A stretch of 64,000 bases of DNA. Origin: Bifidobacterium sp. ESL0728. GTDB lineage: Bacteria > Actinomycetota > Actinomycetes > Actinomycetales > Bifidobacteriaceae. The notes beneath the pieces are model-generated. The model saw only the letters and a program-made list of their open reading frames with translations. It was not told where the DNA came from and did not search any database. Shown piece by piece: positions 43,080-54,995 of this stretch (positions within the stretch are counted from its first letter, which is position 1; each line of letters begins with the position of its first letter). Both the position numbers and the translations under genes were made by a program. Location: assembly GCF_029392015.1 (NCBI RefSeq), contig NZ_CP113925.1:1302001-1366000 (forward strand), in the 5' to 3' direction.

Positions 43080-43808
43080 TTACTGGGAAACAGGTTTGAG
43101 CACTATCTTTCTCTTCGATGCCAGTTGCTGAGGGTCCCGGTATTCCTTTCTGCTTTTGCGAACTCCCCAATGCACGCAGATTCCGGTGCAATGGTCCGAA
43201 ACGCCTTTGACCACACCAATCGGCATTCCCTTGACCACCGGCGTTCCCATCGGCAGAAGCGTCTGGGCCGGTTCCAGAGTCAAAGTGAGACTTTTATGAC
43301 GGATGCTTACCACCGATTTTCCCGCCACGTTCCCGGCGAAACTGATGAAGCCGCTTGCCGGTGCGAACAATGGAGTGTCCTCTATCGCCGCGATATCGAC
43401 GCCACGATGACCCGGTCCCCAAACCTGTTTGGGAGCCTTGAACCGCCTCGTCACCACATGTGGCAGTACCGGCCATCTCATATTGGCTTTGCACCCTTTT
43501 TCGTTGTGAACCGGAGGATCCACAGATCCGATCGGTTCAATGAATCCCAGCGAACGTTGGGGCAAAGCCGTCGTGGATTCATGGGCCTCACCAATGTCTT
43601 TGGACGAATCCAATGTTTCGTCCAACGTGGTGTCAGTCGCAGCGGAGGCTTCATGCCCACCCGTCGCAAAGCCTATGAACAACACAGCAAATACCGCAAG
43701 AATCGTCACCAGTCCCCAAAGAAAGCCAACGAGCTTCTTCCTGAGTTGTTGCCTTGCGAGTCTCAATCGTTCCCGTTTGAGCTGTTGTTTCTCTCTATCG
43801 TCCATCAT
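43080..43808 (-). CDS. M23-family (LytM-like) peptidase domain protein, membrane-anchored
   Basis: Protein of about 242 residues: basic cytoplasmic start, a membrane helix (about 25-50), a linker, then an M23 domain. The metal-binding motif GHRGVDIAA is present. In place of the usual HxH there is CVHWGVR, so one ligand differs and activity is uncertain; many such proteins are noncatalytic amidase activators. Start: the ATG at 43817 almost touches AAAGGAGG, so 43808, ten bases away, is preferred. The promoter region upstream carries the DnaA-box motif shared with comEA. Confidence 0.8.
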   Translation of the reverse strand: MMDDREKQQLKRERLRLARQQLRKKLVGFLWGLVTILAVFAVLFIGFATGGHEASAATDTTLDETLDSSKDIGEAHESTTALPQRSLGFIEPIGSVDPPVHNEKGCKANMRWPVLPHVVTRRFKAPKQVWGPGHRGVDIAAIEDTPLFAPASGFISFAGNVAGKSVVSIRHKSLTLTLEPAQTLLPMGTPVVKGMPIGVVKGVSDHCTGICVHWGVRKSRKEYRDPQQLASKRKIVLKPVSQ

Positions 43809-43888
43809 CGTTGCCATGCCTCCTTTCATTGCAACATTGGCATTAACCGTCCCGCCCTTCCACTATCCCCCATATCCTCCAAATAGCG

Positions 43889-43949
43889 GAGCAAAAACGA
43901 GTGGTGTGGTCGAATGACCCCGGTTATCCACAACGTCCGGGCGTGTCGC
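43889..43949. promoter_or_regulatory. Three-part motif with a perfect DnaA box, M23/tag intergenic region
   Basis: TGTGGTCGAATGA (43905-43917), six bases, TTATCCACA (43924-43932), eight bases, GCGTGTCGC (43941-43949). The same parts in the same order stand before comEA (54902-54960). TTATCCACA is the consensus DnaA box. Its place between two divergent genes fits an operator. Confidence 0.7.
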
Positions 43950-44033
43950 AAAAGTTATGCACCGGATATGCACAAATGCCGGGGCTCACGAGTATAAAAG
44001 ACATAGCGTTTTAAAGAAAGGAACGCTCGACGT

Positions 44034-44669
44034 ATGAACACGGAAAGAAAACCGACAGAGACGAATCCGAAAAACACGGCCGGCAACCCAACAATTGACG
44101 GCGACGGCCTGCAACGTTGCTGGCCGCAATCGTATCTGGGGTTGAGCCACGACATGCTGGTCTACCACGACACCGAGTGGGGCACGCCCTGCTATGACTC
44201 CCAAGCCCTTTTCGAACGGCTCGCGCTTGAGGCCATGCAGGCTGGGCTTTCGTGGAACACCATCATCAACAAGCGCAAGGCGATCGATGCGGCGTTCCAT
44301 GATTTCGATATCGAACGCGTTGCGCAGATGAGTGACGAAATACCTGAGCTGATGGAAGACAAAGCCATCATCCGCAACAGGCGGAAAATCGAGGCCACTA
44401 TCCATAACGCCCAGGTCGCGCTGGAATTGGGTAGGCCATTCGCCGATTATATTTGGGGCTTCGCACCTGACGGGCCGCGCGTGAACAGGCCGAAAAGCCG
44501 GGAAGAGGTTCCCGCAGTGACCCGGAAATCAATCGAGATGAGCAAGGCCATGAAAAAGGCAGGGTTCAAGTTCGTCGGCCCGACCACCATGTACGCCTAT
44601 ATGCAATCGACAGGCATGGTCAACGACCACTTGCAGGGCTGCTTCAGATGCCCCGAAACGGATAAATGA
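44034..44669 (+). CDS. tag: DNA-3-methyladenine glycosylase I
   Basis: Base-excision repair enzyme removing 3-methyladenine from DNA. Family motifs are clear: RCWPQS, YHDTEWGTPCYD, LALEAMQAGLSWNTI, and NDHLQGCFRC near the C-terminus. The zinc ligands (Cys near the start, His in YHD, His and Cys at the end) are all present. About 20 polar residues precede the conserved part. AAAGGAACG lies before the ATG. Transcribed divergently from the M23 gene. Confidence 0.95.
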   Translation: MNTERKPTETNPKNTAGNPTIDGDGLQRCWPQSYLGLSHDMLVYHDTEWGTPCYDSQALFERLALEAMQAGLSWNTIINKRKAIDAAFHDFDIERVAQMSDEIPELMEDKAIIRNRRKIEATIHNAQVALELGRPFADYIWGFAPDGPRVNRPKSREEVPAVTRKSIEMSKAMKKAGFKFVGPTTMYAYMQSTGMVNDHLQGCFRCPETDK

Positions 44670-51925: not shown

Positions 51926-53986
51926 TTAGCCGGCCTTCCAAAGACGTTCGAACATTTGTTCGGTTTCCTTGAGCCATATCGTTCCTTTGCTTCTTAGATC
52001 CATAAGGCCGCTATCGCTGCCCATCAAAGAGCCTTCGGTATCACGCCTTTTCAGTATTCCGGACAACGCTTTGAAAAGCATTGCTATACCGACTTCGCAA
52101 ACCACTACCGTCAAGGCCCCAACCATGCCGCCGGCCCATGGGATCGTAGCGGTTTGCGAGCCGCCGATGGTATCCGCACACCACTGCATCACCGACGTTC
52201 CACAACTTGACAGCCACACAAAGGCAAAGGCGAGATGCGGCGCTGATGGCGAGAGTATCAGACCCGCCAAGCCGGTGAGCGTCGAGAAATCGACAAACGG
52301 CGCCACCACCAGATTTGCCGGGACCGAAAGCAACGGCAATGTCGGGGTCATCAGCACCTGTATCGGCAAGGTGAACAGCTGAGCCGCAATCGTCACAGAC
52401 ATGCCCTCGGCAAGAAATTTCGGGATTATTGCCGAAAGCCGTTGTGCTATGGGCTTTGCACACAGCACAATGCCCAGCACCGAAGCGCAGGAGAGCGCGA
52501 ATCCATAACTTCTCGACATCGCTGGGTTGATTAGCAGCACGAGAATCGTCGTCCAGCTCAACGCACTGATCGCCTGCGGCCTGCGGCCAGCAAACATGGC
52601 CGAAGCGGCGAAGACGCCCATAATCAATGCCCGCATCACCGAGTCCGAGGGGTACATGGCGCTCGCGAGCGCTGCGTAAGCCATCACCGTCAGTATCGCT
52701 ACAACCTGGCGAGGCAACAGGAAACGGGCGCACCCGGATCGAATCAGACTGCCGATAAGCGCGAAATGCCCGCCGGAGACCGCCATCAGATGCATGATGC
52801 CGGAATCCTTGAAATGCATTTCAAGCAGCATGGCGAACGTCGCATTGACAGGCTCACGCCTGCTTGTGCTCGCACCCATGAAATCCTGCCCCAAAAGCCC
52901 TATAGTCAGCCCCGGAACCAGCACCCGTCCTTGGTCGGAAAGCCCTTCGGTCACCGAGAAAAATGAACGTTGCATGGAATCCACCAGCCGTTTTGCGGGC
53001 GGCGCTCGTTCGACCACACGGGTTTCTGTGTTGTCGTCAATCGTCAGCCAAATCGGCCGCATGCCATAGCGGGCGACCTGCAAAGTGCCAGCTGCTGCTA
53101 TGGTCTGCCCATCCGAAAGTCGTACGCAAATCGGCTTGTTGGCATATAGGATGATATGCGATCTGCTGGCCTGCGATATACCGTCGTGAACGATGCCGAC
53201 CAGGTGCGCATTAGCCTGGCAATCGGCCTGCCATGAACTCGCGGCGGTTACCGGCGAGTCAAGACGCACCGTCGCCTCAACCGTGCTTTCACCGTCTCGC
53301 GCAAGCGCCATGGCCGGGTCACGATACGCCATGGCATCAGCACCCATCGAAGCGATGAACGCGGCCAGGGCCGAACACACGAGAACAACCACCCATATCG
53401 TTCTGTTTCCACGTGATTGACACAGAATCATTGAGATTCCGTTTCTACGTGAATGTGTTTCGTCTTCGGTGTTTCTCCCGCACGCTACAGAGTGCCAAGC
53501 CGCTGCCGATACCTTCGGAACCTCGACCGCAATTCCATTGACGGATTTGCGACGGCTGTTGTTTTTCGTGGATTCACAAGGCTCGGACTTGATCGCAGGA
53601 TATCGAGGCGCCGAATCCCCCGAAAGCGCCTCACTGCGATCGAACCATCGACGAGATAGGACCAGCAGGACGACCATACCGGCCAACAGTAAAAGTAATA
53701 CGATTATCGAAAAGATGCCCTCATCATTCAACGAACCTCGCAATCGGCCCATAACCCCGCCCAACAAAGCAATCGGTGAAGAAGCGCTGTAGGATCCAAC
53801 TGCATCATGACCACCTGCGGATGCGCTGCCCTGCTGCCCGGTAAACAGCGCAAACACGGTGTGCGAACCAAGGGCGGCAGCCCACACGCACAGCGCCACC
53901 GGCAGCATCCGCCAGTCGTGGCTGCCTTGCTCGTCGCCTTGCTTGCCACAAGAGTCTCCGTCTTGATAGATATCAGCACTTTCCAT
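51926..53986 (-). CDS. ComEC/Rec2-type DNA uptake channel without a metallo-beta-lactamase domain
   Basis: Membrane protein of 686 residues. An N-terminal pair of membrane helices and a DUF4131-like part (to about 330) are followed by the Competence domain (about 370-620) with PGLTIGLLGQDFMG, HLMAVSGGHFALIGSL and GRRPQAISALSW. In naturally transformable bacteria ComEC moves single-stranded DNA into the cell. The usual C-terminal metallo-beta-lactamase domain is missing; the chain ends about 50 residues after the last helices. Its ATG overlaps the comEA stop by one base (TGATG). Confidence 0.9.
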   Translation of the reverse strand: MESADIYQDGDSCGKQGDEQGSHDWRMLPVALCVWAAALGSHTVFALFTGQQGSASAGGHDAVGSYSASSPIALLGGVMGRLRGSLNDEGIFSIIVLLLLLAGMVVLLVLSRRWFDRSEALSGDSAPRYPAIKSEPCESTKNNSRRKSVNGIAVEVPKVSAAAWHSVACGRNTEDETHSRRNGISMILCQSRGNRTIWVVVLVCSALAAFIASMGADAMAYRDPAMALARDGESTVEATVRLDSPVTAASSWQADCQANAHLVGIVHDGISQASRSHIILYANKPICVRLSDGQTIAAAGTLQVARYGMRPIWLTIDDNTETRVVERAPPAKRLVDSMQRSFFSVTEGLSDQGRVLVPGLTIGLLGQDFMGASTSRREPVNATFAMLLEMHFKDSGIMHLMAVSGGHFALIGSLIRSGCARFLLPRQVVAILTVMAYAALASAMYPSDSVMRALIMGVFAASAMFAGRRPQAISALSWTTILVLLINPAMSRSYGFALSCASVLGIVLCAKPIAQRLSAIIPKFLAEGMSVTIAAQLFTLPIQVLMTPTLPLLSVPANLVVAPFVDFSTLTGLAGLILSPSAPHLAFAFVWLSSCGTSVMQWCADTIGGSQTATIPWAGGMVGALTVVVCEVGIAMLFKALSGILKRRDTEGSLMGSDSGLMDLRSKGTIWLKETEQMFERLWKAG

Positions 53987-54894
53987 CAGACCGTCACCTG
54001 CCCGCGTATCTTCTCCAGCGTCTTCTGCCCGATTCCCGAAACATTGAGCAGCTGGTCGACGCTGGTAAAACGACCGATTGACGCGCGATATTCGATGATT
54101 TTCTGTGCCATCACCGGCCCGACACCCTTGATTTGCTGAAGCTGCGTGCTGTCGGCGTTATTGAGGTTGATGAGATTGCTGTTACTGCCTGAAACACCTG
54201 TTGACGCCCCGGTAACTCCGGATTGTGCAGAGGGGTTTGCCGATGTCAATGCACCACTCGTATCGCTATTTTGCCCTGCACCTGAAGCAGATGCCGAAGC
54301 GGAAGCGTCAGCACCGCCTTTTTTCGAAGGATTTCCTTGCGCCTTTCCGAAACCTTTCACTTTCGAACCACCCACCACCTCCGAACTGAGCGATGAGGCT
54401 TCGGCTTGCTGCTTGTTGTAATTGATCGCCTGCGTCACCAGCATCGTCAGACTCGCGCACAACGCCACCGCCAGCAACAGAATCACCACAACCGCTTGTG
54501 CGGGTTTGAACACCAATCTCGGGATGGTTCGTTGTCTGGAAGCCGGTTTGGCACCCGAATCTTCTTTGGAATCCTCTTCTGAAGTGCTTTCTATGACAGA
54601 ATCGAAATCGTCGATTTGCAAAGTGTGGCCGACGTTTTCAGAGGGTTTTTGGAGCGTATTTTCCAATTTATCTTCTGGCTCGACCAGCCAACGTTCGATG
54701 GGCGGCAACGGCGGGAGGCCGACACGCAGGAGGTCTTCGTCAAGACTTTCGCCGTTCCCACGCAATTTAATTTCAGGCGATTCAGTCTGTGGCACGGCTG
54801 AGGAATATAGCCTGGTCGTCAAAGCCTGGCTCTCGTCGTGTGTTCCGTGATCAAAATGAATGCGCATACCTTCAAGCATGACTGAACCGAGCAC
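53986..54894 (-). CDS. ComEA-like DNA-binding protein
   Basis: Competence DNA receptor of about 302 residues. A long cytoplasmic N-terminus (about 120) is followed by a membrane helix (about 130-155, VVVILLLAVALCASLTMLV), a Ser/Gly/Ala-rich linker and two helix-hairpin-helix motifs at the C-terminus (INLNNADSTQLQQIKGVGPV and VDQLLNVSGIGQKTLEKIRG). ATGs at 54894, 54879 and 54867 are all possible starts; none has a good ribosome site. Upstream DNA holds three DnaA boxes. Coupled to comEC. Confidence 0.9.
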   Translation of the reverse strand: MLGSVMLEGMRIHFDHGTHDESQALTTRLYSSAVPQTESPEIKLRGNGESLDEDLLRVGLPPLPPIERWLVEPEDKLENTLQKPSENVGHTLQIDDFDSVIESTSEEDSKEDSGAKPASRQRTIPRLVFKPAQAVVVILLLAVALCASLTMLVTQAINYNKQQAEASSLSSEVVGGSKVKGFGKAQGNPSKKGGADASASASASGAGQNSDTSGALTSANPSAQSGVTGASTGVSGSNSNLINLNNADSTQLQQIKGVGPVMAQKIIEYRASIGRFTSVDQLLNVSGIGQKTLEKIRGQVTV

Positions 54895-54901
54895 AAAAGT
54901 C

Positions 54902-54995
54902 GAGCCAAAACGACTACTGTGGTCGAATGATAGGGGTTATCCACATTTGAGGCGTGTCGCGCCCTCAAGCGCCGAATCGTCCACATTCATCCACA
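54902..54995. promoter_or_regulatory. comEA upstream region with three DnaA-type boxes
   Basis: TGTGGTCGAATGA (54918-54930), six bases, TTATCCACA (54937-54945), six bases, GCGTGTCGC (54952-54960): the same three-part motif as at 43889-43949. Two further boxes with one mismatch each follow, TCGTCCACA (54977-54985) and TCATCCACA (54987-54995). Confidence 0.7.

Follow-up and report, generated by a model that had tools for sequence, protein, structure and literature searches.

The window analysed here, a stretch of 64,000 nucleotides from the genome of Bifidobacterium sp. ESL0728, contains two copies of a three-part motif that includes a DnaA box. The first copy lies between a gene for a protein with an M23 peptidase domain and the tag gene, which are divergent across positions 43829-44034, and the second lies upstream of the comEA-comEC operon (Table 1). 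The comEA product contains an HHH_3 domain (E 7e-23) and matches the ComEA helix-hairpin-helix family TIGR00426 above the cut-off, both scanned on the longer reading frame. The start of comEA is re-called here, and the M23 gene is likely to begin at the ATG at 43817, which follows AAAGGAGG.

Table 1. Features of the two element copies and of the adjoining genes (window coordinates)
Feature	Position	Strand	Basis
Site 1, distal block GACACGCC (GGCGTGTC on the plus strand)	43940..43947	-	sequence; kept across the family
Site 1, DnaA box TGTGGATAA (TTATCCACA on the plus strand)	43924..43932	-	9-mer identical to boxes near dnaA
Site 1, proximal arm CATTCGACCACA, proposed activator site	43905..43916	-	sequence, arm search, family profile
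Site 1, -10-like region (GGATAGTG), about 38 bp past the arm	43861..43868	-	position agrees with the family profile
M23-peptidase-domain protein, promoter side of site 1	43080..43829	-	Pfam PF01551, E 9.1e-10
Site 2, distal block GACACGCC	54951..54958	-	sequence
Site 2, DnaA box TGTGGATAA	54937..54945	-	pattern search
Site 2, additional upstream DnaA-like box TGTGGATGA, oriented as the core box, 50 bp away	54987..54995	-	
Site 2, proximal arm CATTCGACCACA	54918..54929	-	sequence and arm search
Site 2, -10-like ATGCTT, 6 bp upstream of the ATG	54874..54879	-	family profile
comEA, start re-called at ATG 54867 (+50 from the arm), replacing GTG 54894	53986..54867	-	
comEC, second gene of the operon	51926..53986	-	Pfam PF03772 (Competence), E 2.7e-37

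Anatomy of the two window sites

On the plus strand, the first site is composed of TGTGGTCGAATGA (43905-43917), six spacer bases, TTATCCACA (43924-43932), eight spacer bases and GCGTGTCGC (43941-43949); in the second site the same blocks occupy 54918-54930, 54937-54945 and 54952-54960 and are separated by six bases in both places. Exact copies of the motif are thus present at both places named in the original prediction, with identical spacing in the first pair and spacing within two bases in the last, as it had stated. The 28-bp two-block pattern TGTGGTCGAATGA-N6-TTATCCACA, with up to three mismatches, occurs twice in the window and not once in 100 shuffles. Single blocks at one to three mismatches showed no enrichment in the window, so the signal resides in the arrangement of the blocks.

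Alignment of 13 copies from the whole genome, together with the search for the genes they precede, revealed that the correct reading strand is opposite to that on which the motif was first noticed. The element reads GACACGCC-N5-TGTGGATAA-N7-CNTTCGACCACA, followed after about 50 bp by a start codon, and the whole control element spans about 40 bases. The first spacer is seven bases at the first window site and six at locus L018, instead of five. Read in this direction, the element stands before the M23 gene and comEA, as proposed; the part of the proposal that placed it before tag fails, as the element faces minus-strand genes. The candidate target tag was rejected on the same geometry, since the arm faces the minus strand and tag, on the plus strand from 44034, starts on the opposite side. 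The motif and an M23 gene also occur together in relatives (L037 and L103), and one other species (L103, L143) has a homologue of tag next to the M23 site, so that the pairing is conserved. Given this conserved adjacency, the promoter could conceivably have an effect on tag as well.

Promoter geometry and the genes behind the element

In the single contig of 2,590,841 bases, 13 close copies with up to three mismatches were found, and the reversed control gave none. A whole-genome search with the arm only (CRTYCGACCACA) returned 25 places compared with five for the reversed pattern; judged by their downstream reading frames, 21 of these are promoters and four (L230, L235, L239 and L243) are chance matches. 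The ATG of the downstream frame lies 49-51 bases past the arm in 10 of the 13 strict sites. When the sites of this genome and its relatives are pooled (135 sites from related and therefore not independent species, 121 long-spaced and 14 short-spaced), 87 have an ATG at +49 to +51, while the mean over +0 to +39 is 1.98 ATGs per position. In the profile aligned on that ATG, -12 is T (0.55), -11 is A or T (0.83), -7 is T (0.78) and -1 is a pyrimidine (0.94); this is a -10 element positioned so that transcription begins at the ATG. A weak -35-like TTG/TGG is located near +14 to +16. The fixed distance to the ATG suggests that the transcripts are leaderless and that the promoters are driven by an activator. 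This distance does not apply to hicAB, to flp (+103) or to the M23 gene, whose ATG is at +75 or at +87, the second of these being preceded by a good ribosome site. A PafBC-type promoter was considered and rejected, as the interval from -35 to -10 holds no conserved block.

In the family profile the distal GACACGCC block and the arm are conserved as strongly as the DnaA box; the sequence of the arm varies (CTAGAACCACA). The genes ssb and UNK373 and several of the AbiEi-like genes described below belong to a second spacing class, in which the arm and the distal block are exactly 10 bp closer together; any DnaA box then sits on the far side with its orientation reversed, TTATCCACA-(N0-1)-ACACGCC-N11-CNTTCGACCACA. 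At recA of this genome the distal block is inverted and stands at the 23-bp distance of the short-spaced class.

The genes downstream of the element, identified by Pfam and NCBIfam, comprise comEA-comEC, a comF/phosphoribosyltransferase gene, a DUF4244 pilin gene with TadE, genes for CpaE/TadZ-like, type II secretion ATPase (T2SSE, TadA) and SAF/CpaB-like proteins, and the M23 gene, several of the matches (TadZ, comF and cpaB in NCBIfam) being under the curated cut-off. With the arm search, recA, ssb and yraN-comM joined this list, identified by reading their translated sequences; dprA follows comM. A common promoter element is therefore shared by the genes for DNA uptake (comEA-comEC and comF), for DNA processing (dprA, comM, recA and ssb) and for an uptake-type pilus, and recA, ssb, yraN-comM and the tad genes stand behind it again in relatives. 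Placed under one element, comEA-comEC, comF, comM-dprA, recA, ssb and the Tad pilus have, by their sequences, the look of a competence regulon; nearly all genes of DNA uptake and recombination in this genome are preceded by it. These shared promoters strongly support the proposal of the original prediction that DNA uptake and the M23 peptidase are under common control, and they extend it to the whole competence set; the link to DNA repair that it drew through tag is not supported, recombination being linked instead by recA, ssb and dprA, which lie elsewhere in the genome.

Toxin-antitoxin-like genes are also located under the element, namely hicAB (HicA by Pfam) and, as judged by eye, a RelB-like gene succeeded by one for a toxin-like protein. 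A DUF4160 pair and the genes UNK310 and UNK373 (L237 and L224), the latter encoding a membrane protein, are further members. Three copies of a family of 87 residues (HP87; L016, L017 and L019), each followed by a gene for a small protein, are preceded by the motif. This family has no confident Pfam match, and a Foldseek search of the PDB at E <= 0.001 yielded nothing for it or for the AbiEi-like family. The AlphaFold model of HP87 (pLDDT 94.5) aligns in VIA-align with RelE/BrnT-like toxins at Z 6-7 (7vd7, Z 7.1, rmsd 3.8, 85 aligned; 3u97, Z 6.9, rmsd 2.9, 72 aligned), which is suggestive of a RelE/BrnT-like fold. HP87 and its small partner probably constitute a new family of toxin-antitoxin modules controlled by competence promoters. 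Four paralogues under the motif (L018, L021, L227 and L228) are predicted to combine an N-terminal part like the AbiEi antitoxin with a C-terminal part like Vsr nucleases. VIA-align superposes their AlphaFold model (pLDDT 90.7) on the AbiEi antitoxin 6y8q (Z 11.8; 178 aligned at rmsd 6.6) and on the Vsr-like nucleases 3r3p (Z 8.9; 93 aligned at rmsd 2.5) and 1vsr (Z 6.3; 100 aligned at rmsd 3.2). These structural matches are suggestive, and the paralogues may represent a competence nuclease family.

In other species of Bifidobacterium the motif also precedes pairs of WXG-like and alpha/beta-hydrolase (GHSQGG) genes and genes for FtsK/EssC-like ATPases (L030, L035, L036, L039, L044, L054, L061 and L101), as well as HigBA; the WXG label was assigned by eye. 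The presence of the WXG-like, hydrolase and FtsK/EssC genes behind the motif suggests a link between type VII-like secretion and competence.

Recurrence in the genus and association with DnaA boxes

Strict copies, with up to three mismatches, are present in 40 of 112 Bifidobacterium genomes, while the reversed control gave none in all 112. The strict ungapped pattern undercounts the element, because both the spacers and the arm vary. The short-spaced pattern with up to two mismatches occurs in 60 of the 112 genomes, but scattered matches of the reversed control show that these two-mismatch rows are partly due to chance. The downstream DNA was inspected for a subset of the genus sites chosen for diversity. 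A gapped search of 37 flp promoters (36 from genomes lacking a strict match and one from a genome with it) found the element on the reading strand in 17, on the other strand in none, and in none of 100 shuffles; the flp promoters of low-GC genomes (L177-L180, L194 and L199) yielded no copy in this search. The degenerate exact pattern, run over a collection with one genome per species (84,980 species), matched 55 stretches, all in Bifidobacterium. Among 297 members of the order searched, 14 of which are Bifidobacterium, none of the 283 outside the genus matched, and no copy was identified in the viral contigs searched. Random placement or a lack of conservation, either of which would have spoken against the motif, was checked for and did not refute it: a single functional gene set lies behind these promoter sites, which turn up again across the genus. 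The composite, DnaA-box-bearing promoter element, widespread in Bifidobacterium, defines a probable competence regulon.

The proposal that copies of a dispersed repeat or mobile element landed by chance in intergenic regions could account for the 42 identical bases common to several copies of this genome. It is extremely improbable, since the copies precede genes of one functional set with a constant spacing to the start codon, the spacers diverge across species while the blocks do not, and the viral contigs searched are devoid of copies.

The promoter 9-mer TTATCCACA is identical to exact boxes near dnaA, at positions 397, 545, 567 and 621 of the contig (within 397-629), and to others immediately ahead of the match to the dnaA domain at 2589813. 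Exact DnaA boxes also form two clusters of four, at 2573555-2573732 and 2582122-2582282, which are located from a few to about 17 kb before that domain match, one of them upstream of a ParA-like gene. Exact boxes were found within 100 bp upstream of 16 of the 25 arm-only hits (shuffled mean 0.02), and boxes with one mismatch upstream of 20 (0.60 in shuffles), while at short-spaced sites with up to one mismatch a box with up to one mismatch lies within 38 bp in 26 of 29 cases, compared with 0.13 in shuffles. Only one-mismatch boxes, further upstream, are present at ssb and yraN-comM of this genome. Additional boxes that share the orientation of the core box are spaced from it by 20, 30-31, 40, 50 and 70-73 bp; among the periods tried, 10.25 bp fits the same-strand spacing best (R 0.79, n=78), and 10 boxes are in the opposite orientation. 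In total, 24 of the 54 exact boxes of the genome are within 120 bp of these arms, and the reversed 9-mer occurs seven times genome-wide.

Upstream of a gene recognised by eye as encoding a dnaB-like replicative helicase (L212, approximately 2255393-2255461), the sequence reads GACACGCC-N5-TGTGGATAA-N9-TTATCCACA, i.e. the left half of the competence element with a perfect inverted DnaA box in place of the arm.

The recA promoters differ in their content. Among 30 recA loci, drawn from the top matches in a set of 61 genomes, 28 have the arm with up to two mismatches, weak matches included (shuffled mean 1.85, largest 5); two of these 28 and both failures are LexA-like boxes by eye, and the GACCACA arm itself was recognised by eye in 26 of the 30. 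At the recA promoters L307, L308, L321 and L324 the best match reads as the LexA-like palindrome CGAACA-N-ATGTTCG and not as the competence arm. The shared element is not a LexA-type palindrome: its arm is CNTTCGACCACA, and the palindrome is a different sequence at some recA promoters. A DnaA box accompanies only one of the 26 recA arm sites, so that a box is not found at every member promoter; since recA promoters have the arm but usually no box, DnaA alone cannot define the regulon, which is filed here as DnaA-associated. The role of DnaA as the shared controller, as originally suggested, is thus favoured by boxes like those of dnaA, by an enrichment independent of the search pattern and by helical phasing, but DnaA as the sole determinant is contradicted by the recA arms.

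The presence of the site at recA and ssb, and of the LexA-like palindrome, as read, at some recA promoters, might indicate a DNA-damage regulon in which the genes of DNA uptake are mere passengers. This is quite improbable, as the set consists mostly of uptake, pilus and DNA-processing genes (comEA-comEC, comF, comM-dprA and Tad) and the arm differs from the palindrome. It is more conceivable, yet still doubtful, that one dedicated regulator reads the whole element including TGTGGATAA, with a coincidental or ancestral likeness to DnaA boxes and no part for DnaA. In favour of such a regulator, the arm and GACACGCC match the box in their degree of conservation, TGTGG and CCACA are arranged as an inverted repeat about the centre, and recA has the arm usually without the box. 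However, the additional boxes stand at varied, helically phased distances, as for a separately binding protein, and those of the short-spaced class lie on the other side in the other orientation. The family profile tolerates a G/C exchange at one position of the box, exactly the position at which the DnaA consensus TTATNCACA is free, and the dnaB promoter joins GACACGCC to two perfect opposed DnaA boxes. Alternatively, the boxes could be repressor sites of DnaA, shutting the promoters at high DnaA activity, or a titration sink away from oriC. The large share of the exact genomic boxes held by these promoters (24 of 54) agrees with this, and the location of the boxes upstream of the core promoter permits either sign of regulation; but a sink would need neither a fixed promoter spacing nor a link to one gene set, and the helical phasing points to an ordered complex, which makes this alternative unlikely. 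Binding of DnaA to these promoters is likely from the boxes and their phasing, while the chances that it serves as a functional co-activator appear evenly balanced. DnaA is probably a co-regulator beside a putative arm-binding activator, a separate activator being proposed because the recA promoters mostly lack the box.

A candidate competence regulon and its relation to known systems

The shared promoters, the gene set, the genus-wide recurrence, the fixed start-codon distance and the enrichment and phasing of the boxes can be read from the sequence, and that they reflect a real co-regulated competence set is very probable. We consider it rather likely that the element is the regulatory half of the competence-regulon promoters of Bifidobacterium, bound by an arm activator with DnaA as co-regulator. 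Against this reading stand the near absence of boxes at the recA arms and the 20 of 37 flp promoters, almost all from genomes lacking a strict match, in which the gapped search found no copy. A putative activator, made under conditions that favour competence, would bind the proximal arm CNTTCGACCACA, at about -60 to -51; the distal GACACGCC block is probably bound by it too. It would recruit RNA polymerase to a sigma70-like promoter. The transcript would start at or next to the start codon, yielding leaderless mRNAs. DnaA would occupy the central or flanking TTATCCACA box, often with more boxes on the same helical face, and as a co-regulator it would tie DNA uptake to the state of replication. 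We infer the binding of DnaA, an activator rather than a repressor on the arm, and natural transformation as the outcome; activation is preferred to repression because of the position upstream of a weak -35.

In the search for the regulator, the sole transcription factor gene noticed directly behind a motif operon encodes a LuxR-type response regulator after hicAB. As an autoregulated master it was not accepted, being found in only 17 of the 112 genomes (E <= 1e-15) and not in some motif-rich ones, e.g. G034.

In the Streptococcus SigX (cin-box) and Bacillus ComK (ComK box) regulons, one element precedes comEA-comEC, comF, DNA-processing genes, recA, ssb and the uptake pilus. The layout of a single element over the same gene classes is shared with Bifidobacterium, which, however, has another element, probably another regulator, a Tad instead of a com pilus, and DnaA boxes in most of the promoters.

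According to passages of a report on Micrococcus luteus, transformation requires tad genes, comEA-comEC is present, and the molecular details of competence regulation remain to be unravelled (PMC4322843). The shared Tad and ComEA/EC components support the reading of an uptake machine; those passages describe no shared promoter element. In portions of a second report, competence of M. luteus is regulated by nutrients, and a text search of these found no DnaA (PMC6667448). DnaA is described in parts of a review as a transcription factor with promoter sites, acting as activator or repressor, and a text search of that review for competence gave no matches (PMC8203912); compared with such DnaA-regulated promoters, the boxes of Bifidobacterium are combined with a genus-specific arm and block. 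Replication stress, including oversupply of DnaA, induces competence in the pneumococcus, as stated in an excerpt (PMC8394987). There the signal passes through comCDE, whereas in Bifidobacterium the DnaA boxes are in the promoters of the late genes themselves. Sections of other papers mention a toxin-antitoxin pair linked to competence (PMC12795458) and the co-localisation of Rok and DnaA in B. subtilis (PMC11841835).

For Bifidobacterium, Tad (T4c) loci are described in extracts of one study as present in all described taxa and are read as attachment structures (PMC13091076); for the same tad loci the shared promoter argues for DNA uptake besides attachment. The genus is portrayed in a portion of another text as being without known competence systems (PMC12470161), a competence island in B. 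adolescentis is mentioned in part of a third (PMC13011404), and in PMC5561799 competence appears only in the reference list. Searches of the PMC literature, which covers few subscription-journal papers and preprints, listed no description of a Bifidobacterium competence regulon or of this motif.

Taken as a whole, these observations suggest a programme for DNA uptake tied to chromosome replication and previously unrecognised in bifidobacteria. More tentatively, and with somewhat less than even confidence, the genus may possess an intact natural-transformation programme in which DnaA, the replication initiator, directly co-controls the late competence promoters. This programme would also switch on toxin-antitoxin modules, with the addition of WXG-like/hydrolase and FtsK-type secretion genes in some species, and would join growth arrest, attack on neighbours and DNA uptake in one replication-gated state. 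The conserved promoters of more than 20 operons provide reporters for the inducing condition and DNA bait for the master regulator. If DnaA acts here, the state of replication and horizontal gene transfer would be coupled at the late competence genes, unlike in the pneumococcal route. The regulon would assign the universally conserved Tad pilus of bifidobacteria to DNA uptake besides attachment, and it would bear on the movement of genes in the gut.
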